Notes under the pieces: generated by a model
What the model was told of the DNA's origin: nothing
The model's input: only the letters and a program-made list of their open reading frames with translations
The model's database searches: none
Shown: positions 1,900-35,694 of the stretch, one piece after another
How the letters are laid out: each line of letters begins with the position of its first letter
Position numbering within the stretch: the first letter of the stretch is position 1
IMG/VR virus record: IMGVR_UViG_3300024359_000338
Coordinates: 1 to 35,694 of that record
Length of the DNA: 35,694 nt
Reading direction: 5' to 3' (one strand)
Origin: a virus
Position numbers and translations under genes: made by a program

Positions 1900-2202
1900 T
1901 TATTCCTCAAACAATCCACCCAATCTACAATTTTCTGAAAAATGAAAGTGTAGAGTTCCATCATCTAGGTAGTATTTATCGAGATACCCAGCATCAGTCA
2001 ATAATTTAAGATATCCTTTAGGTAGCTTGTATGCTTTCCTAAATCTCTCGTAACAGTCTTCAGGGTATTTATCATTTGGATAACTATCAAATGGTTTCTC
2101 TGTAGTAGAATAAAGATACCAATGACCTCTTTGTTCTTCACAAGTTCCATCTTCACAAGCAAATTCTAGTTTCTCCAAAAGTTGTTCTGTTGTTAGTTTC
2201 AT
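1900..2202 (-). CDS. Hypothetical protein, 100 residues
   Basis: The product is aromatic-rich and acidic, with four Cys (CEDGTCEEQRGHWYLY and SENCRLGG) and a C-terminal GGLFEE. No family is recognised. The CGAGGAT site before the ATG is the typical leader of this phage's early genes. Two perfect TATACT-N3-AGTATA dyads lie at 2228-2265, directly upstream. It is therefore the first gene of a sub-operon running through 1664, 1516, 1275, 1012 and 918. Confidence 0.6.
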   Translation of the reverse strand: MKLTTEQLLEKLEFACEDGTCEEQRGHWYLYSTTEKPFDSYPNDKYPEDCYERFRKAYKLPKGYLKLLTDAGYLDKYYLDDGTLHFHFSENCRLGGLFEE

Positions 2203-3061: not shown

Positions 3062-3652
3062 TTATCTCCAGCTTTCGCCATTTACCCAGCAAACTAAAAC
3101 TTTACGAGTTCCTTTGGTCACTGGTGTGACACAATGATTCATAAAACTTGTAAATGCTACTAATTCATTATCATTATTTTTTATAACTACTTCTTCACCA
3201 CCACTCATTATTTTTAATTCTCCACCCTCAAAATTATCATCTAATATCCAAGAGATTGATATTTTTCTAGTAGAGCCTATCTCACAATTTATATCGGTAT
3301 GAGTTTTATAAAAATCTCCAACACTATATTCTAAATATTGAATATCTTGTATAGCTGATATTCTATAATTAAATATTTTATTAAGCTCAACTGCATAAAC
3401 ATGAAACAAACCACCTATCTTAGAATCTAAAGGTATTCTCCACATCTTGACTTTTCTAGTGAGTTTATCATCAACACCATAATTAACTTTAGCATCTTGT
3501 TGAACTCCAACACCACTCGATAATTCCACTCTTGCTGAAACTAAATCTGCACGATTGATAGGAAGTTTGACAACACCATAGTTTGGTATCTTATCCATAT
3601 CAGGATTACCATGTGATTGAAAAAAACTAGTTTTTAGAATTGTTAAAGACAT
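3062..3652 (-). CDS. 2OG-Fe(II) oxygenase, prolyl-hydroxylase/PKHD type
   Basis: The product has 196 residues. The double-stranded beta-helix signature is complete: iron ligands H118-x-D120 (KTHTDIN), distal H173 (MNHCVTPV) and the 2-oxoglutarate-binding R183 (KGTRKVLVCW). The core FEGGELKI, typical of prolyl-4-hydroxylase-like enzymes, precedes the distal His. Enzymes of this family hydroxylate protein side chains or small molecules. Similar genes are common in marine phages, with unknown targets. It is clearly different from the TET/JBP-type enzyme at 8719-9645. The start is supported by AAAAGGAGTTTAATT. A 9-bp hairpin (3672-3699) lies immediately upstream of this site. Confidence 0.85.
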   Translation of the reverse strand: MSLTILKTSFFQSHGNPDMDKIPNYGVVKLPINRADLVSARVELSSGVGVQQDAKVNYGVDDKLTRKVKMWRIPLDSKIGGLFHVYAVELNKIFNYRISAIQDIQYLEYSVGDFYKTHTDINCEIGSTRKISISWILDDNFEGGELKIMSGGEEVVIKNNDNELVAFTSFMNHCVTPVTKGTRKVLVCWVNGESWR

Positions 3653-5292: not shown

Positions 5293-5954
5293 AATACCAC
5301 CCACTCCTCGAATGTAGGCATAAACTTCTTAACATCTCGCCTTATCATTTGTGAGCCACCTGTTTCATCAGCACTTATCAATACAACATTTTCTATGTTC
5401 TCGTTGAACATCTCGTTATACATAACTGCATAGGCACATAATTGCACACCATAATTATCTTTTATGCTTTGCTTGGGTTTATTAGAAGTCTTAAAATCTA
5501 TTACAGCTAAATATCCCTCATCATGATTGTATCCTTTAATTTTAGCGATACAATCTACTCGACCATGAATTTTATAAGTGTCAGAATAAAGTTCAGTTTC
5601 TATAAAAACAATATCATCAATCATTTCTAGATAGCCAAGCATATTCATGAATAAGCCATTTGCTAAAACACTATCGCATCTGTGTGATGTAGGCATAGAC
5701 TCTTCAGAACTGCTATAAAGGTGTTTATATTCGGTTGTAAAATATTCTTGTATCATTGAGTGTACTTTTAAACCTCTTTCAGCACATCTTTTCATTTCAA
5801 AGTTAGCAACATCTTCACCCAATTCTTTTCTCCACTTTTCCAAACTACGATTTGGTCTAGCATTTATTATGCTAGTGATACTTTGATAACCGAGATTCTT
5901 TTTTTTAAGTATCTCGGCACTTGCTATCGTTTTCCATTTTTCTTGCTTAGTCAT
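5289..5954 (-). CDS. PD-(D/E)XK exonuclease, RecB/Cas4/MGME1-like
   Basis: The product has 221 residues. H65 in RGLKVHSMI, an acidic patch near E120, D134 in HGRVDCIA, the D153-x-K155 pair in AVIDFKTS and the later QLCAYAVMY motif match the metal site and Q-x3-Y element of RecB-family nucleases. Such single-domain enzymes act as phage recombination exonucleases alongside ERF or RecT annealases, and an ERF gene lies downstream in the same operon. The start ATG overlaps the DUF2958 stop as ATGA and is preceded by GGTGGTAG. Confidence 0.85.
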   Translation of the reverse strand: MTKQEKWKTIASAEILKKKNLGYQSITSIINARPNRSLEKWRKELGEDVANFEMKRCAERGLKVHSMIQEYFTTEYKHLYSSSEESMPTSHRCDSVLANGLFMNMLGYLEMIDDIVFIETELYSDTYKIHGRVDCIAKIKGYNHDEGYLAVIDFKTSNKPKQSIKDNYGVQLCAYAVMYNEMFNENIENVVLISADETGGSQMIRRDVKKFMPTFEEWVVF

Positions 5955-6292
5955 AGAACACTACCACCATTTAGAATATCCTCGATAGTATGTTTGTTGC
6001 TTTCAAAATACATATCTCGTTCTATTGGTAAACCCATAACACCTTTAAACTCTTTAAGTTCATTAAGGTCAATATAACCAGCCTCTCTTTCGTGTAATTG
6101 TGCAACACCGAAAGCTATATTTGTTTCAGGGTCTAACTCAGTTAGCCACCAAGTGCCAATACCAGTAGGATTAAATAATTTAACAACTATTTTGAAATCA
6201 ACACTTGTGGGATGTTCAGAATTCCATTCTTTTTTGTGGGCTATGTGATTTTTTATTAATCTATCTCTTTGTGCTTTTAAAAATAATTTCAT
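5951..6292 (-). CDS. DUF2958-like protein
   Basis: The product has 113 residues. The pattern VVKLFNPTGIGTWWLTELDP, FGVAQLHEREAGYIDLNELKE, then GLPIERDMYF follows the DUF2958 family of small proteins found on plasmids and phages. Its function is unknown. The gene is joined to its neighbours by ATGA overlaps at both ends and has an AGGAGAGATGTC leader. Confidence 0.7.
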   Translation of the reverse strand: MKLFLKAQRDRLIKNHIAHKKEWNSEHPTSVDFKIVVKLFNPTGIGTWWLTELDPETNIAFGVAQLHEREAGYIDLNELKEFKGVMGLPIERDMYFESNKHTIEDILNGGSVL

Positions 6293-6534
6293 GACATCTC
6301 TCCTCTATAAACATAAGTTGTAAAATGTTTATTGTTTATTGTTGTGTCGATAGACTCAATATTAAAATGACATCTAAGATTAAATATAATTGCCGATAAT
6401 CTTGTGATTCTGAAAGTTTCTATAGCATCCCAAGATGTGATTGCTTTCTTTTTTAATAAATGCACTAACACTTTCTCGGCTTGAGTTTTAGGGTTAGAGA
6501 TATTATAACCATTTAAAAATTTATCTTTTTTCAT
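6289..6534 (-). CDS. HTH_39-like DNA-binding protein
   Basis: The 81-residue product has the short phage helix-turn-helix pattern: KTQAEKVLVHLLKKKAITSWDAIE, then FRITRLSAIIFNLRCHFNIES, then a beta wing ending YVYRGEMS. This matches the HTH_39 family. It is the first gene of the leftward early operon, with an AACGAGGAAAATATT leader and the 30-bp operator at 6571-6600 upstream. A role in DNA binding or early regulation is inferred. Confidence 0.7.
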   Translation of the reverse strand: MKKDKFLNGYNISNPKTQAEKVLVHLLKKKAITSWDAIETFRITRLSAIIFNLRCHFNIESIDTTINNKHFTTYVYRGEMS

Positions 6535-8138: not shown

Positions 8139-8744
8139 ATGAAAGTAGTAGAAAAAAATGTAGCTGACATCATACCAGCTAATTACAATCCAAGAGAAAT
8201 AACCAAGAAACAGTTCGCTGAAATCAAAGAAAGTGTTGATAAATTCGGTCTTGTAGACCCATTGATAGTTAATATACACCCAAACAGGAAAAACATATTG
8301 GTTGGTGGTCATCAAAGACTACAAGTTATTATTGATATGGGTTTGAAAACTGCGCCCTGTGTAGAAGTTAATCTTGATGAAAAACAAGAGAAAGAATTGA
8401 ATGTAAGACTTAATAAAAATCAAGGTCAATGGAATTTTGATAACCTTGCAAACTTTTTTGATGTTGATAATTTGGTCGACTGGGGATTTGATTCTAAAGA
8501 ATTAAATTTTTCTAATGTTGCAGAGTTAAACGAAACAATGAGTGCTGTTGATAATGAGTTCACAGGTGAGGGAGATGATTTTTTACCATCACAAGTAAGA
8601 ATGATACAATTATTTCTTAGTTCAGAAACAGAGCCAATATTTAGAACACAAATAGAAAAATTGAAACAGGTTTATAATTCTGAAAATATAACAGATGCAG
8701 TTATGACAGCTGTTAAAAATGAATATGAAAGTAATAACAGTTAA
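8139..8744 (+). CDS. ParB-like nuclease-fold protein
   Basis: The product has 201 residues. The N-terminal ParB/sulfiredoxin-type domain is clear: NVADIIPANYNPREITKKQ, ESVDKFGLVDPLIVN, then ILVGGHQRLQVIIDMG, followed by LNVRLNKNQGQWNFD. The C-terminal third (VRMIQLFLSSETEPIF) has no recognised family. Free-standing ParB-like proteins are frequent partners of phage DNA-modification enzymes, and here the gene overlaps the TET/JBP-type dioxygenase gene. A role in targeting or assisting base modification is inferred; there is no ParA partner to suggest partition. TAGGAGTCAAT precedes the start. Confidence 0.75.
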   Translation: MKVVEKNVADIIPANYNPREITKKQFAEIKESVDKFGLVDPLIVNIHPNRKNILVGGHQRLQVIIDMGLKTAPCVEVNLDEKQEKELNVRLNKNQGQWNFDNLANFFDVDNLVDWGFDSKELNFSNVAELNETMSAVDNEFTGEGDDFLPSQVRMIQLFLSSETEPIFRTQIEKLKQVYNSENITDAVMTAVKNEYESNNS

Positions 8745-9645
8745 AGAGCATAAAACAAAAGAAGAATTAGATGAGATAAAAGGCACATATCTTGATGAGT
8801 CTTATATAAAATATCCTATTCCTAAAGATGATACTACTTTCAAGAATGAGAAAGGAGATATTGTTGCAGTCTATCTGAACAAAATAGTTCCATTTGAACT
8901 TTGTAAAAAAGCATTTCCATTTCTGAGAAAAGCATCACTCAGGGAATCTAATAACAGAGGAATGGCATCAGGTCAAACTGATGAAATGAAAGTGGGCATG
9001 AAAATTAATGGTATGTATGTTGGTAAAGTTCTTAGTGGTGGGAGATTTATACCTTTAAAAAAAGATGGCACTTTATCTAATTCGCCTAAAGCAATAGCAG
9101 TAAATTCATCTGTGATAGGTTATATGGACAGATATGCTAGGATTCCATATTGTAGAATGACAGAGTTTAGCCAAAGATTTTTTGATGAGTATAAACAAAC
9201 ATTGCCATACATTAGATATATTTCTAAACTTTATGAAACATTTGTTCCTGAAAAATATAATTTGCAAAAAACATACTGGGAAAAAATACACAAAGATTTT
9301 AAAATAGACAATACAGCATTCACGACAGTTACCCTGAATAATAACTTCAGAACTGCTTGTCATACTGATAAAGGAGATTTTAAAGATGGCATTGGTAATT
9401 TAGCAGTCTTAGAAAAAGGAAGATATGATGGTGCTTATACTGTTATCCCTAAATATGGAATTGGTTTAAATGTAAGAAATACTGATGTTGGGTTCTTTGA
9501 TGTTCATGAGATTCATGGAAATACTGAGATAGTAAAACATGGTGATTGTGAAAGAATCTCAGCAGTATGTTATGTAAGAGAAAAAATGATTAAATGTGGA
9601 AGTGCCAAAGAAGAATTAAACATAGCCTTAGAGAGAGATAAATGA
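8719..9645 (+). CDS. TET/JBP-type 2OG-Fe(II) DNA base dioxygenase
   Basis: The 308-residue product carries the phage TET/JBP signature in its C-terminal half. Iron ligands H215-x-D217 lie in FRTACHTDKGDF. GIGNLAVLEKGRYDGAYTV and PKYGIGLNVRNTDVGFFDV follow. The distal His lies in VHEIHGNT (H263 or H266), and the 2-oxoglutarate Arg in ERISAVCYVREKM. These enzymes oxidise the methyl group of 5-methylcytosine or, in JBP, of thymine in DNA, producing a hydroxyl for later glycosylation. The next gene is a glycosyltransferase joined by an ATGA overlap. No cytosine methyltransferase is visible in the window, so the substrate is open. The N-terminal 190 residues are unassigned. Confidence 0.85.
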   Translation: MNMKVITVKEHKTKEELDEIKGTYLDESYIKYPIPKDDTTFKNEKGDIVAVYLNKIVPFELCKKAFPFLRKASLRESNNRGMASGQTDEMKVGMKINGMYVGKVLSGGRFIPLKKDGTLSNSPKAIAVNSSVIGYMDRYARIPYCRMTEFSQRFFDEYKQTLPYIRYISKLYETFVPEKYNLQKTYWEKIHKDFKIDNTAFTTVTLNNNFRTACHTDKGDFKDGIGNLAVLEKGRYDGAYTVIPKYGIGLNVRNTDVGFFDVHEIHGNTEIVKHGDCERISAVCYVREKMIKCGSAKEELNIALERDK

Positions 9646-14368: not shown

Positions 14369-14649
14369 TGAAGTCAAAAACATTGGCTGAGAAGAAACAT
14401 ATGCAAAAAGTTGCAGAATTAGGTTGTATTGCTTGTCGAAAGCTCGGTTTCTATGATACACCAGCAGAACTGCATCATATTAAGAAAGGAATGATGGGTA
14501 AACGAGCATCTAACTATGAGGTCATACCTTTATGCCCACATCATCATAGAACATCAAATGAGTCTTATCATCAGAACCCTTTATGGTTTACAGAAACTTT
14601 TGGTACACAAACTGAACTCTTACAGGAAACTCTAGAATGGCTAGATTAA
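14368..14649 (+). CDS. HNH endonuclease, Ref/DUF968-like
   Basis: The 93-residue product has a zinc-type Cys pair (GCIACRK), the catalytic LHHIKKG and the closing VIPLCPHHHR, then SYHQNPLWFTETFG. This is a compact HNH nuclease of the type often annotated as Ref-like or DUF968. HNH proteins encoded beside terminase in HK97-like phages support cleavage at packaging sites, and the location between portal and MuF fits. It overlaps the portal stop and extends 13 nt into the next gene. Confidence 0.8.
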   Translation: MKSKTLAEKKHMQKVAELGCIACRKLGFYDTPAELHHIKKGMMGKRASNYEVIPLCPHHHRTSNESYHQNPLWFTETFGTQTELLQETLEWLD

Positions 14650-15413
14650 GAATAAATCGTAGAAAAGAATATAGACAAGCATTAAGGATATATATCACAT
14701 TGACTAGAGCCTTAATTAAAAAACTAGATAAATTCTTTGATAAATATAAACGATATGCTTTTAAAAATTATGCAGAACTCGGAGAGATACCTGATAAATA
14801 TTATGATGACCATTGGCAAGATTTATATAAGTTGTTAGAAATAAATGCTAAAAGAGTGATTGAAGAATCATCAAGAACTATTAAGACATCTAAACTATTA
14901 CAGAAAGCAGAAGATGAAGTAGCACAAGTCACTTATGATTATGTCACTACTAATACTGCACAAAATGTTACTTACATAACAGAAACTACTAGAAAAAAAA
15001 TACAGTCTGCTATCGCTTATTCAGTCAGCGAGGGATTCGGACAAGATGATACTGCTAAACAAATAGCCAAGTCTACAGCATTTAGTACAGGAAGAAGTAA
15101 AGTAATAGCAAGGACAGAAACTCATCAAGCATATAATTATGGTAATAATAAAATTGCTAGAAGATTAGCATTGAAGAAACCTAGAAAAGAATGGTTAAGT
15201 GCGATAGATGAAAGAACGAGGTCGTGGCACACTAGCATGAATGGTACTAACATACCTATTGAAGATGATTTTCAAGTCTTTGCACCAAGTAAAGTAGACC
15301 CAATACCACAGCTCATGCAATATACAGGTGATTCAAATGGTGGTGCTAGTAATGTTGTTAATTGTCGTTGCTTTACTATGTACTATGATGAAGATGATGT
15401 AATTGTAGATTAA
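14637..15413 (+). CDS. MuF-like head morphogenesis protein
   Basis: The 258-residue product has a basic helical N-terminal half and a C-terminal MuF module: IARTETHQAYNYGNNKIA, then KEWLSAIDERTRSWHTSMNG, then GASNVVNCRCFTMYY. MuF proteins are minor head proteins carried near the portal. Its position immediately after portal and HNH matches HK97-like and GTA-like head operons. It ends at a bidirectional terminator (15417-15442). Confidence 0.85.
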   Translation: MARLRINRRKEYRQALRIYITLTRALIKKLDKFFDKYKRYAFKNYAELGEIPDKYYDDHWQDLYKLLEINAKRVIEESSRTIKTSKLLQKAEDEVAQVTYDYVTTNTAQNVTYITETTRKKIQSAIAYSVSEGFGQDDTAKQIAKSTAFSTGRSKVIARTETHQAYNYGNNKIARRLALKKPRKEWLSAIDERTRSWHTSMNGTNIPIEDDFQVFAPSKVDPIPQLMQYTGDSNGGASNVVNCRCFTMYYDEDDVIVD

Positions 15414-15458
15414 AAAAAAGAGCCATATTGCTATGACTCTTTCTTTTGGTTTTTTTAT
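15412..15458. terminator. Bidirectional Rho-independent terminator
   Basis: AAAGAG (15417-15422) pairs with CTCTTT (15437-15442), with an inner CATA/TATG helix across one mismatch and a 4-nt loop. An A8 run precedes it and T-rich sequence with T7 follows, so it can stop transcripts from the plus-strand head operon and the minus-strand small-gene cassette. Confidence 0.8.
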
Positions 15459-15463
15459 TTAGA

Positions 15464-15631
15464 TTAACACTTTTCTACTGTATCGACTCTAACTTTTCTA
15501 ACACACTCACCATGATGATGACTACTATAACCCTCTTCTATTGCTTGTGCTTTTGCATCATTAATGTTTTCTGCCTCAACAGTTATTGGAACAACCAATG
15601 TTATTTCTGTATCTACTCTATATTCTTTCAT
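15464..15631 (-). CDS. 55-residue hypothetical protein, possibly DpnD/PcfM-like
   Basis: ATG 15629-15631 follows GAGGAGAGGAAAAT and the stop is TAA 15464-15466. The product begins MKEYRVDTEITLVVPITVEA, continues ENINDAKAQAIEEG and has a His-rich SSHHHGECVRKVR. The strand-strand-helix pattern with VEAENINDAKAQA resembles small DpnD/PcfM-like proteins, but I hold this loosely. It overlaps the upstream gene as ATGA and is the last gene of a three-gene minus-strand insert. Confidence 0.6.
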   Translation of the reverse strand: MKEYRVDTEITLVVPITVEAENINDAKAQAIEEGYSSHHHGECVRKVRVDTVEKC

Positions 15632-15894
15632 ATTTTCCTCTCCTCTAAAGTCTGCATCAAATTATTGAAATCTGTAACAGTTCTTATATTTGTAATTGCC
15701 CATAACTTATTATATGCCTTAGCAATCCTTATATTGCTTGTTTCAGTTTTCATTTGTAAACTGAACAAATCTTTAGGTGTCATATCTTTTATGATATCCT
15801 GAGTTAAAGTTTTTCCACCTTTTTGTCTACATATTGCCCTTTTATCTGTTAAAGCTATTCTTAAATCCTTAACTACTTTTATTATTTCTTTCAT
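15628..15894 (-). CDS. Hypothetical protein, 88 residues
   Basis: The start at ATG 15892-15894 is fixed by the AAACGAGGAAAAT leader. An in-frame upstream ATG would place this leader inside the gene and is rejected. The product is basic and helical (MKEIIKVVKDLRIALTDKRA; then QDIIKDMTPKDLFSLQMKTE). No family is recognised. It is the middle gene of the small minus-strand cassette. Confidence 0.55.
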   Translation of the reverse strand: MKEIIKVVKDLRIALTDKRAICRQKGGKTLTQDIIKDMTPKDLFSLQMKTETSNIRIAKAYNKLWAITNIRTVTDFNNLMQTLEERKI

Positions 15895-15954
15895 ATTTTC
15901 CTCGTTTGTTTTGTTAATTGTTTTGGGTAGTTTAGGTGATACCCACACCATTCA

Positions 15955-16266
15955 TTATTTTTTAAGTTTAAGTAAATCTTCCCAAGACATATCCTCTACC
16001 ATCTCAAATAATCCCTCTTCAACCATGTATTGACTAACAAATAGTTGTAGTGAATATGAGTTATCAATAGAACCACCATCAGTGAAACCATTATTTAACA
16101 ACATTTGTTTTTTAATTAAAGATGAAATAACACCTCTTGCTTGTTTTTCAGTTAAATCAATATCTTTTAAAAATGGTTTAATAGCATCTAAACTAATTCC
16201 ACAAAAGTCATGCTCATCATTCATTAGTTTTAAAAGGTTAGTTTCATTGTTTGTTAAGTTTTTCAT
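15955..16266 (-). CDS. Hypothetical protein, possible winged helix
   Basis: The product has 103 residues. DEHDFCGISLDAIKPFLKDI then LTEKQARGVISSLIKKQMLLNNG has the helix spacing of a small winged helix-turn-helix. The C-terminal half is acidic. This is a shape argument only. The AAACGAGGAAAAAT leader and the operator pair at 16289-16319 mark it as first gene of the insert between the MuF and protease genes. Confidence 0.55.
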   Translation of the reverse strand: MKNLTNNETNLLKLMNDEHDFCGISLDAIKPFLKDIDLTEKQARGVISSLIKKQMLLNNGFTDGGSIDNSYSLQLFVSQYMVEEGLFEMVEDMSWEDLLKLKK

Positions 16267-16288
16267 ATTTTTCCTCGTTTCATTAACT

Positions 16289-16319
16289 TATATATACAGT
16301 ATATTATACTTAAAGTATA
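16289..16319. promoter_or_regulatory. Operator dyads (site G)
   Basis: TATATATACAGTATA (16289-16303) and TATACTTAAAGTATA (16305-16319, perfect) lie 23 bases upstream of the leftward gene starting at 16266 and 88 bases upstream of the rightward protease gene. They probably control the leftward cassette and may also affect the head genes. Confidence 0.6.
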
Positions 16320-16406
16320 AAGTAAAGTCTTTTTTAATAAATATAGACTTATTTTATAAAATATGGTTAAAATACTCGTATATTTACTAACTTTTTGGGT
16401 GGTTGA

Positions 16407-17084
16407 ATGGATAATAGTCAAATACAAGAGGATTTAGAGCAATTAAAAGAGATGATTACAGATGTACCCTGTGATTTTAAACAGCTAGATACAGAAGAAG
16501 ATGGTACATTCGAGGGCTATGGCTCGGTATTTAACAACAAAGATTTAGGAAATGATGTCATTCGTAAGGGTGCATTTGCTAACACACTCAAATATAGAAA
16601 ACCAAAACAAGTAAAATTATTATATCAACACAAAACAGATGAGCCGATAGGTGTCATTGATTCTTTAGAAGAAGATAATAAAGGGTTATACATCAAAGGC
16701 AGATTAGCAATGGGTACACAAAAAGGTCGTGAAGTTTATGAGCTTATGAAAATGGGTGCTTTAGATTCTATGTCAATAGGATATAGACTATCGCCTGATG
16801 ATTATAAATATGACCCAAAGCAGAAGAAAAGAATAATTAAATCTGTAGACTTAATGGAAATATCATTAGTCACATTCCCAATGAATCCGAAAGCGAAGAT
16901 AACAAAAGTTAAACTTGCTGAAATGAATGTAAGAGAGATAGAGGAACACTTGCGAGATGCTGGTTGTGAATCTGTAGCTGTTGCAAAACATACTGCACAA
17001 GTGCTTTACAAATCATATCGGAGTGATGAGCAACGAGATGTTGTTGAAAGCATGAATCAGTTAATTAACACAATTAAACCATAA
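16407..17084 (+). CDS. HK97-type prohead protease (S78)
   Basis: The product has 225 residues. The N-terminal EGYGSVFNNKDLGNDVIRKGAFANT, catalytic H75 in LLYQHKTDEPIG and catalytic S123 in ALDSMSIGYRL match the S78 fold. The third member of the catalytic triad lies in the later ISLVTFPMNPKA region. It processes the capsid proteins during prohead maturation. The start is preceded by GGGTGGTTGA. It begins a new plus-strand block after the minus-strand insert and sits directly before the capsid gene. Confidence 0.9.
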   Translation: MDNSQIQEDLEQLKEMITDVPCDFKQLDTEEDGTFEGYGSVFNNKDLGNDVIRKGAFANTLKYRKPKQVKLLYQHKTDEPIGVIDSLEEDNKGLYIKGRLAMGTQKGREVYELMKMGALDSMSIGYRLSPDDYKYDPKQKKRIIKSVDLMEISLVTFPMNPKAKITKVKLAEMNVREIEEHLRDAGCESVAVAKHTAQVLYKSYRSDEQRDVVESMNQLINTIKP

Positions 17085-34935: not shown

Positions 34936-35536
34936 TCCAAGTCATACTGGTTTTATTATCGCCAGTATTTTTTAGTTCAGTTTTTCTTTTTTCAATCCAC
35001 CTTGCTTTTGCTTTATCGCCAATTAATCCATCAACAGGACAAGGTGTTCCAGCATTCATCATGGCTTTCCAAATATTTTCATCTTGACAGGCAAGACTAA
35101 TTGATGCCACTTTCATGCCCAAACGAAAAAGCATATTGACTGATTTTCTTCTTTGACAATCTAAGTCCAAATGGTAAGAGCCAAAACTTCCTGAGAATCC
35201 AATCAGTGTAACTCCAGCAGTTAGAGGAACGACACAACTATCCTGACCATAAACACTCATGCTTGGTGCTGATGCACTATTGACTGCTGTTTTTTGATTC
35301 GTAGAATTATTAGTTTCATTATTCGTTGTACTGTTAGAACTAGACCCTGATTGATAGGTGGTCGAACTTTCATAGCCACCAGTTATGGCAGTATTTGAAC
35401 CAGCATTATTAGATTGAGTATTGGTTGTTGAGCCACTCGATGTGACATCAGCTAAAGCATCAGATATGCCATAAGCCAATATTATAAATAACATAATGAG
35501 AATAACCTCTTTGTAAAAAGCGAACATTGTTCTCAT
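34928..35536 (-). CDS. Secreted protein with Ser/Asn-rich linker and conserved C-terminal domain
   Basis: The product has 202 residues. A hydrophobic N-terminus (EVILIMLFIILAYGISDALA) acts as signal or anchor. A Ser/Thr/Asn/Gly-rich linker (about 30-85) follows, then a compact domain (SVYGQDSCVVPLTAGVTLIG; LDLDCQRRKSVNMLFRLGMK; SLACQDENIWKAMMNAGTPCP) with four Cys. The domain looks conserved in phages, and I recall similar sequences in marine phages, but its function is unknown. It follows the holin gene across the contig junction (ATGA overlap), so lysis or envelope action is plausible. The gene appears again, partial and diverged, at 1-338. Confidence 0.75.
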   Translation of the reverse strand: MRTMFAFYKEVILIMLFIILAYGISDALADVTSSGSTTNTQSNNAGSNTAITGGYESSTTYQSGSSSNSTTNNETNNSTNQKTAVNSASAPSMSVYGQDSCVVPLTAGVTLIGFSGSFGSYHLDLDCQRRKSVNMLFRLGMKVASISLACQDENIWKAMMNAGTPCPVDGLIGDKAKARWIEKRKTELKNTGDNKTSMTWND

Positions 35537-35694
35537 CTCCTTACCAAACTACCACCAAAATACAAACCTACGATACTAGAAACGACATGTGTATCTAATG
35601 GAGTTATAACTAGACCAGTCATTGGTTTCCATTGAGTTATGTCTGTGCTTGAGGCAAATATCCACCAACCTTGCATCACCGATTCTGTATAACC
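35199..35694. repeat. Right copy of 496-bp terminal repeat
   Basis: The segment aligns without gaps to 1-496. Bases 35576-35694 (119 nt) are identical to 378-496, and all mismatches lie before that. The copy ends in the middle of the holin gene exactly where the left copy continues. Confidence 0.9.
35533..35694 (-). CDS. Holin-like protein, partial (right haplotype copy)
   Basis: This fragment carries the C-terminal 53 codons and stop of the holin gene found complete at 335-769; the window end cuts it. The encoded residues (ending VGLYFGGSLVRR) are the same as in the left copy, with only silent base changes. The stop overlaps the start of the 202-residue gene as ATGA. Confidence 0.8.
   Translation of the reverse strand, partial: GYTESVMQGWWIFASSTDITQWKPMTGLVITPLDTHVVSSIVGLYFGGSLVRR

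Follow-up and report, generated by a model that had tools for sequence, protein, structure and literature searches.

Between the genes for the MuF protein and the prohead protease of an uncultured ocean phage lies a cassette of three small genes that runs against the head operon. Its presence raises the question of how such genes can be held, expressed and replaced at this position, which bears on how mosaic phage genomes keep expression ordered under gene turnover.

Genome context and layout of the cassette

The source record, IMGVR_UViG_3300024359_000338, is a sequence of 35,694 nt, the full length of which is referred to as the window. It features a siphovirus-like gene set with terminase, portal, MuF, S78 protease, HK97-type capsid and tail genes; the families found are Phage_portal, S78 protease, Phage_capsid and a central tail fibre J-like protein. 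The early region encodes an Erf-like annealing protein, a PD-(D/E)XK exonuclease, a replication protein and a helicase. The window ends (1-496 and 35199-35694) form an imperfect, gapless direct repeat with 90.5% identity over 496 nt, perhaps because the genome is complete and the population was mixed where the ends overlap. At 8139-9645 there is a ParB/methyltransferase-like gene, and the gene behind it has a queuine tRNA-ribosyltransferase-like match (phrog_6059); the two are possibly a DNA-modification pair.

Among named phages, the capsid protein has its best match at 46% (a Rhizobium phage), with the next among the matches listed at about 30-34%, while bacterial genomes yielded one 35% match, in a MAG. 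Since these matches are only distant, the host could not be named. A nucleotide search of the cassette region against named phages gave no match.

Gene calls and Pfam flanks agree with the initial annotation of three minus-strand genes between MuF (14637-15413, plus strand, 258 aa; Phage_Mu_F, E 1.9e-16) and the prohead protease (16407-17084, plus strand; Peptidase_S78, E 1.1e-37). The first cistron (15955-16266) encodes a predicted winged-helix protein of 103 aa, the second (15628-15894) a protein of 88 aa that matches no family, and the third (15464-15631), which overlaps the end of the second, a protein of 55 aa. On the plus strand, a promoter-like site for the protease-capsid operon was found by promoter scan at 16344-16373 and is retained in the empty site of one relative (L015).

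The cassette ends at a hairpin terminator (15412-15447; inverted repeat I5). It had been described as bidirectional, and a hairpin is indeed formed both ways, but it is much stronger in the direction of the cassette (minus strand; -17.4 kcal/mol, z -6.4) than when read by the MuF transcript (plus strand; -10.4 kcal/mol, z -2.8). A simple terminator scan of the window did not flag this hairpin.

Gene content of the site in related phages

Of 240 relatives of the protease in IMG/VR, the 80 best were retained and, with the window (L001), made up a sample of 81 loci. Both the MuF end and the protease are held by 63 of these; the other 18, in which the MuF end was not found, were dropped. The gap between the two genes measures 65-3860 nt, with a median of 876 nt. 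The initial annotation had proposed that presence or absence of the cassette be checked in relatives at this site, and had named conserved structural parts in all of them as the result that would speak against a moron. Counting the empty class, 38 gene contents were found among the 63 loci, i.e. at least 37 filled contents, at least 36 of them other than that of the window, beside five empty loci (L015, L016, L060, L062 and L074); slot ORFs were called mechanically and many of the loci repeat one phage from separate assemblies, so that these locus counts are not event counts. Conserved structural parts in all relatives were looked for at the slot and not found. L065, returned by the ORF filter as a sixth empty locus, was rejected; its gap of 580 nt holds plausible small ORFs.

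The slot ORFs fall into 63 plausible families, nine spurious-looking clusters having been left out of 72. Forty-five of the families occur in a single content and five in both orientations. L006 and L007 encode a protease identical to that of the window and carry different cassettes. Of three named distant phages, one has a single small forward gene at the site and another has two; the third, in which no MuF is annotated from portal to protease, lacks small genes there. Judged by this comparison, the site between MuF and protease is an accessory-gene slot.

Because the slot lies behind MuF, the cassette could also encode immunity or partner proteins for a polymorphic toxin of the MuF type. Toxins of this type that bear a metallopeptidase domain, and the small ORFs that follow them, have been described (PMC5576092, in excerpt). 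Among the 54 loci with a start-complete MuF frame, eight (L033, L034, L035, L036, L046, L069, L070 and L075) have a MuF that extends into a C-terminal HExxH domain (561-640 aa in total), and a reverse-strand gene of 69-91 aa stands behind the extended MuF. However, the MuF of the window, at 258 aa, is without a C-terminal toxin domain, and the three genes of the window are not homologous to the partners of the fused MuF proteins (clusters 5 and 9 versus 3, 7 and 8). For the cassette studied here we consider a role as toxin partner extremely improbable.

Operator, promoter and leaders

The palindrome TATACTnnnAGTATA occurs in six exact copies in the window (2228, 2251, 2759, 10638, 16305 and 32597), whereas 20 Markov sequences contained 0.00 on average. 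If one mismatch is allowed, the count rises to ten, against an average of 0.55. Eleven of the 12 operator sites tested are intergenic, in a window of which ORFs of at least 70 aa cover 89%. The operator repeats are not due to chance. They define seven operator units: A (32597), B (2228/2251), C (2736/2759), D (4880), E (6571), F (10638/10656) and G (16289/16305). The start-associated sequence AACGAGGA opens the leading gene in units A, B, C, E and G, and units D and F have variants of it. When window and relatives are taken together, there are 31 distinct exact operators; 28 of them lie within 110 nt of an RBS-like motif and an ATG, in 27 cases on one side only; around random positions of the same sequences the proportion is 23%.

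Operator G (TATACTTAAAGTATA, 16305-16319, both strands) is located at the cassette border, as had been claimed, and sits inside the spacer of a promoter-like site on the minus strand (TTTACT-17-TATACT, 16298-16326). A degenerate copy with two mismatches (16289-16303, both strands) overlaps the -10 element. Since the promoter scan of the window returned 12 sites compared to 15.5 in shuffles, i.e. no excess, the call of the cassette promoter rests on its geometry, which is the same in relatives. The palindrome of many relatives is placed between a TTTACt/TTGACa-like -35 and a TATAcT/TATAAT-like -10 element, a geometry to which units A to F of the window show a poorer fit.

The leader A[AT]ACGAGGA...ATG was found five times in the window, against a mean of 0.03 in 30 shuffles. 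Leaders of the CGAGGA type had been assigned to the whole cassette. They precede the 103-aa gene (16267-16280, minus strand) and the 88-aa gene, but not the 55-aa gene, which has GAGGAGAGGAAAATATG. Based on the promoter, operator and leader shared with early-type units, expression of the cassette would be early.

The five empty loci lack the operator too, which therefore travels with the cassette and does not mark the site. More distant relatives often lack an exact copy of the operator. In the slots of L055, L066 and L079, which belong to one subclade, the promoter within the first 90 nt has a different palindromic sequence (TATAC...GTATA) in its -35/-10 spacer; this is perhaps an operator with another specificity.

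Predicted products of the cassette

Searches with the cassette proteins against Pfam, PHROGs, NCBIfam and PADLOC gave nothing above the cut-off or at a convincing E-value. The 55-aa protein has a weak DpnD/PcfM-like resemblance below the cut-off (E 0.0057). PADLOC profiles, a library not aimed at anti-defence proteins, matched none of the three at E values up to 0.1; one of the 63 slot representatives matches PADLOC PDC-S09 (E 4.7e-5).

For the 103-aa protein, AlphaFold2 yielded a confident model with a pLDDT of 84.8. Its best VIA-align hit has a Z score of 9.3, and many winged-helix regulators follow at Z 7.5-8.5. This range of 7.5-9.3 is the level of a common arrangement. Foldseek returned no match at E 0.001, and the best PDB match by sequence reached an E-value of only 0.098. 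A winged helix is the predicted fold. Homologues of the protein were found at eight viral loci, confined to this phage group, and in none of the named phages. The model of the 88-aa protein is of low confidence (pLDDT 68), with other models under 50.

The dN/dS values are 0.19-0.62 for the 55-aa gene (four comparisons), 0.43 for the 88-aa gene and 0.17-0.65 over seven comparisons of the three cassette genes, in which the numbers of changes are small. They indicate that the genes encode real, moderately constrained proteins. The products are probably small host-interaction or regulatory proteins used in some conditions only, while anti-defence or host takeover, functions for which the cassette had been recommended as a place to look, are a guess.

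The predicted winged helix is encoded next to an operator, as would be expected if the 103-aa protein were a repressor and the cassette served lysogeny, either by superinfection immunity or by lysogenic conversion. However, the operator is retained in slots that do not contain the 103-aa gene (L006, L007, L008, L010, L012, L014 and L020), so that the protein is unlikely to be a general repressor. Again pointing away from lysogeny, no integrase or CI-like match was obtained among the scanned part of the window proteins. We regard a lysogeny function as very improbable. The HTH_39 protein encoded at 6289-6534 is only a candidate for the repressor.

Shared parts and exchange of slot genes

The nine slots of the closest clade share 75 DNA blocks, of which 68 are mostly noncoding in both slots, three lie in homologous genes, four are mixed and none connects unrelated genes. 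In comparison, 69% of the DNA of these slots is coding. All four mixed blocks correspond to the pseudoknot region described below, which is coding only if a 107-aa start is used. The noncoding blocks comprise the terminator, the operator-promoter flank and the intercistronic stretch. Relatives whose slots contain other genes have a terminator of almost identical sequence, which is inverted in L084/L069. From these alignments it appears that terminator, operator-promoter and leaders stay while the slot genes change.

Several joints are sharp and are located in such parts. An 18-nt repeat (family D11) is present in two identical minus-strand copies, one at the start of the 55-aa gene (15623-15640) and one at the start of the 88-aa gene (15886-15903), where it comprises the 3' part of the leader and the ATG. 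L019 is without the 88-aa gene, the stretch missing in the alignment being exactly that between the two repeats. In L007 the 55-aa gene is absent and another gene replaces the 103-aa gene, with joints at the leaders. In L084-L087 and L080, the unit corresponding to 15892-16279 is about 96% identical, compared to about 77% for the protease-capsid flank; here the 103-aa unit is in plus orientation and is followed by the same terminator sequence, also inverted.

Relatives of slot genes were also observed in operator units elsewhere. A slot gene of L035/L036 shares 53% identity with the gene of unit B in the window (1900-2202). Slot genes of L023, L038 and L073 resemble two genes of unit E, one for the HTH_39 protein (6289-6534; 41-42% identity) and one for a DUF2958 protein (5951-6292; 39-44%). 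A relative of the 55-aa gene (about 60%) precedes the small terminase gene in L095/L096, behind an operator, and its neighbour in L095 is a 62% relative of a slot gene of L061. These homologues in operator units argue that slot genes belong to the operator regulon and that genes move between slots.

The reverse orientation of the cassette, its own promoter and terminator, and a G + C content of 0.286 compared to 0.331 for the genome would suit an ordinary foreign insert, acquired in a single nonhomologous gain and independent of any slot or shared parts. However, 11% of equal-size windows are as low in G + C, and the early region has a value of 0.305, so that base composition does not set the cassette apart from the phage. 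In addition, relatives fill the site with other genes behind the same parts, and these phages carry the parts, and homologues of the genes, at other positions as well. Such a classic moron is improbable in our view, though it keeps a small share of our confidence. In the broader sense of the initial annotation, a moron under a phage-wide operator, the proposal is supported at the sequence level by contents that vary between near-identical phages, by empty sites, by the operator in the promoter spacer and by the homologues in operator units.

The intercistronic element

A 25-nt candidate RNA pseudoknot, GGTGTGGGTATCACCTAAACTACCC (15925-15949, minus strand), which the initial annotation had not noted, is placed after the stop codon of the 103-aa gene and before the 88-aa leader. 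Its stem 1 (GGTG/CACC) and stem 2 (GGGTA/TACCC) are interleaved as in an H-type pseudoknot. A reading of the 88-aa gene as a 107-aa gene starting at the ATG at 15951, which would make the element coding, was rejected. In other contexts the ATG is found in each of the three frames relative to the element, which counts against the longer form, and the homologue in L007 starts at the 88-aa ATG; the leader also supports 88 aa.

IMG/VR was scanned twice for the element. The pattern of the first scan, which allowed R/Y and W/W at three pairs and was therefore biased, yielded 66 stretches and, together with the loci in the sample, 46 distinct contexts, 36 of which have an RBS and a start codon within 70 nt. 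The three free pairs were all paired in the 46 contexts, one by G-U. Because of this bias, both sides of four pairs were left free in the second scan. All four pairs were formed in 43 of its 59 distinct contexts, and 34 of the 43 have an RBS and ATG; the other 16, none of which has them, were read as background. For the covariation analysis, 26 cores with 8 distinct sequences were taken from the 46 contexts; in this alignment, which has few independent changes, 72 of 72 cells were paired and three pairs had changed on both sides. The score of 0.306, compared to 0.140 for shuffled alignments, was reached by none of 500 shuffles. Six combinations of S1 and S2 stem types were seen. The alignment thus points to two interleaved stems with compensatory change, as in an H-type pseudoknot. 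Minimum free energy folding gave stem 2 only and was not better than shuffles (z -0.6, 0.0 and -1.3), with a program that cannot form pseudoknots.

The element is intercistronic. A same-strand ORF ends 5-23 nt upstream in 40 of the 41 contexts that had sufficient upstream sequence (5-15 nt in 37), and the start codon, where found, is located 18-37 nt downstream. The 34 ORFs downstream of the element represent 22 unrelated families. An operator-like site was found in the 150 nt before the element in none of the 41 contexts.

A dyad-symmetric DNA binding site would give the same covariation, and mycobacteriophage ESAS repeats in a similar position have been read as DNA sites (PMC3203893, in the excerpted text). 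However, the element consists of two interleaved dyads with a fixed sense, and it is tied to an upstream ORF end and, where found, a downstream start codon at the distances given above, with no operator-like site preceding it. A DNA site is therefore the less favoured interpretation, unlikely but of some weight, and we continue with that of an RNA pseudoknot.

No Rfam match above gathering or at a convincing E-value was obtained in the window or in nine element-bearing loci; a weak match (E 4.2) lies elsewhere in the cassette region, on the other strand. Comparison of the element with 50,697 named phage records gave short chance matches only, none covering 80% of the query. In the open-licence literature, searched for such an intercistronic element, slot or shuffling, no description of the element was found. 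The contigs with the element mostly carry relatives of this phage's genes, and some are without them, among 18 proteins tested. The early region of the window contains a 2OG-Fe(II) oxygenase-like gene (3062-3652; phrog_61, E 6e-26), relatives of which are frequent in contigs bearing the element.

Another subclade features a GAAA-loop hairpin at the same position (20 distinct contexts, 18 with RBS and ATG), which speaks for a generic structural role and not for ligand binding. The hairpin GGGAGCA-GAAA-TGCTCCC and its variants were observed between unrelated genes in the slots of L039, L043, L046, L066, L067, L073 and L079.

Proposed model

Taken together, we consider it likely that the cassette occupies a plug-in slot that is insulated and belongs to an operator-controlled early regulon, and that its genes are shuffled by recombination in shared parts. 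This slot would lie, transcriptionally insulated, at the border between the portal-MuF operon and the protease-capsid operon. A phage-encoded repressor may bind the palindrome in the -35/-10 spacer and thereby switch the cassette together with the early regulon. Early in infection, or on release of the repressor, the promoter at 16298-16326 would fire; the transcript would run against the head operon and end at the terminator, leaving the late portal-MuF and capsid operons undisturbed. The capsid operon would use its own promoter-like site at 16344-16373, which is present even in an empty site. Gene exchange would come about by homologous recombination, for which the common leaders, intercistronic elements and terminators would supply the homology; the Erf-like annealing protein and the PD-(D/E)XK exonuclease of the phage would aid this process. 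The 25-nt element would act in RNA, folded as a pseudoknot right after one stop codon and right before the next ribosome-binding site, where it could keep the unrelated neighbouring cistrons 1 and 2 independent by protecting mRNA ends or by decoupling translation.

A wider form of this model, which we put forward tentatively and hold to be possible though somewhat doubtful, is that the accessory genes of these phages are built from interchangeable parts, namely an operator-promoter, a start leader, an intercistronic pseudoknot that would represent a new class, and a terminator. Such parts would both insulate the genes and serve as homology for swaps, in either orientation and in several slots, the pseudoknot being RNA insulator and recombination joint at once.

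The model suggests how phages may swap small genes without breaking regulation, and it marks the MuF-protease interval of marine contigs as a place to collect small genes. The 25-nt element is a new RNA candidate, being short, covarying and placed from stop to start ahead of unrelated genes.

Comparison with known systems

The comparisons drawn here follow excerpts of the cited papers. In T4-type phages, promoter early stem-loops (PeSLs) mediate gene shuffling (PMC4503421, citing Arbiol 2010 and Comeau 2014). By analogy, early-promoter and stem-loop parts are repeated here between genes that are shuffled among related phages. The present system differs in belonging to an uncultured siphovirus-like group and not to a T4-type genome, and in having a palindromic operator in the promoter, a pseudoknot-like separator of cistrons and a fixed slot at an operon border.

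Small pseudoknots and other structures near phage genes are known from STAXI and manA, structured RNAs of phages and marine metagenomes (PMC2864571). The 25-nt element resembles them in being a small pseudoknot or structured RNA near phage genes. Unlike them, as far as the excerpt describes them, it stands in single copy between cistrons, and it is without an Rfam match.

For lambdoid phages, morons are defined as extra ORFs with their own promoter and terminator that are absent from relatives (PMC1524935, in excerpt). The cassette likewise consists of extra ORFs between its own promoter and terminator, as far as sequence signals tell, and is absent from relatives. Compared to the lambdoid morons of that definition, it comprises several genes, shows exchange between slots within a phage family, uses the regulatory parts of early genes and has no marked difference in G + C content.

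In cluster K mycobacteriophages, start-associated sequences (SAS) are found at the RBS of nonstructural genes from different families, often with an inverted repeat just upstream (PMC3203893, PMC12699233). A repeated start-associated sequence at the RBS of genes from different families is shared with the phage described here. However, the sequence AACGAGGA does not conform to that of the ESAS (GGGATAGGAGCCC), the inverted repeat is located in the spacer of the promoter, and a stop codon is followed by a distinct RNA-like element. The ESAS repeats are said not to support RNA pairing (PMC3203893, in the same excerpt), whereas the 25-nt element does. By analogy with the excerpted descriptions, the cassette works like the PeSL and SAS/ESAS systems and is a member of neither.
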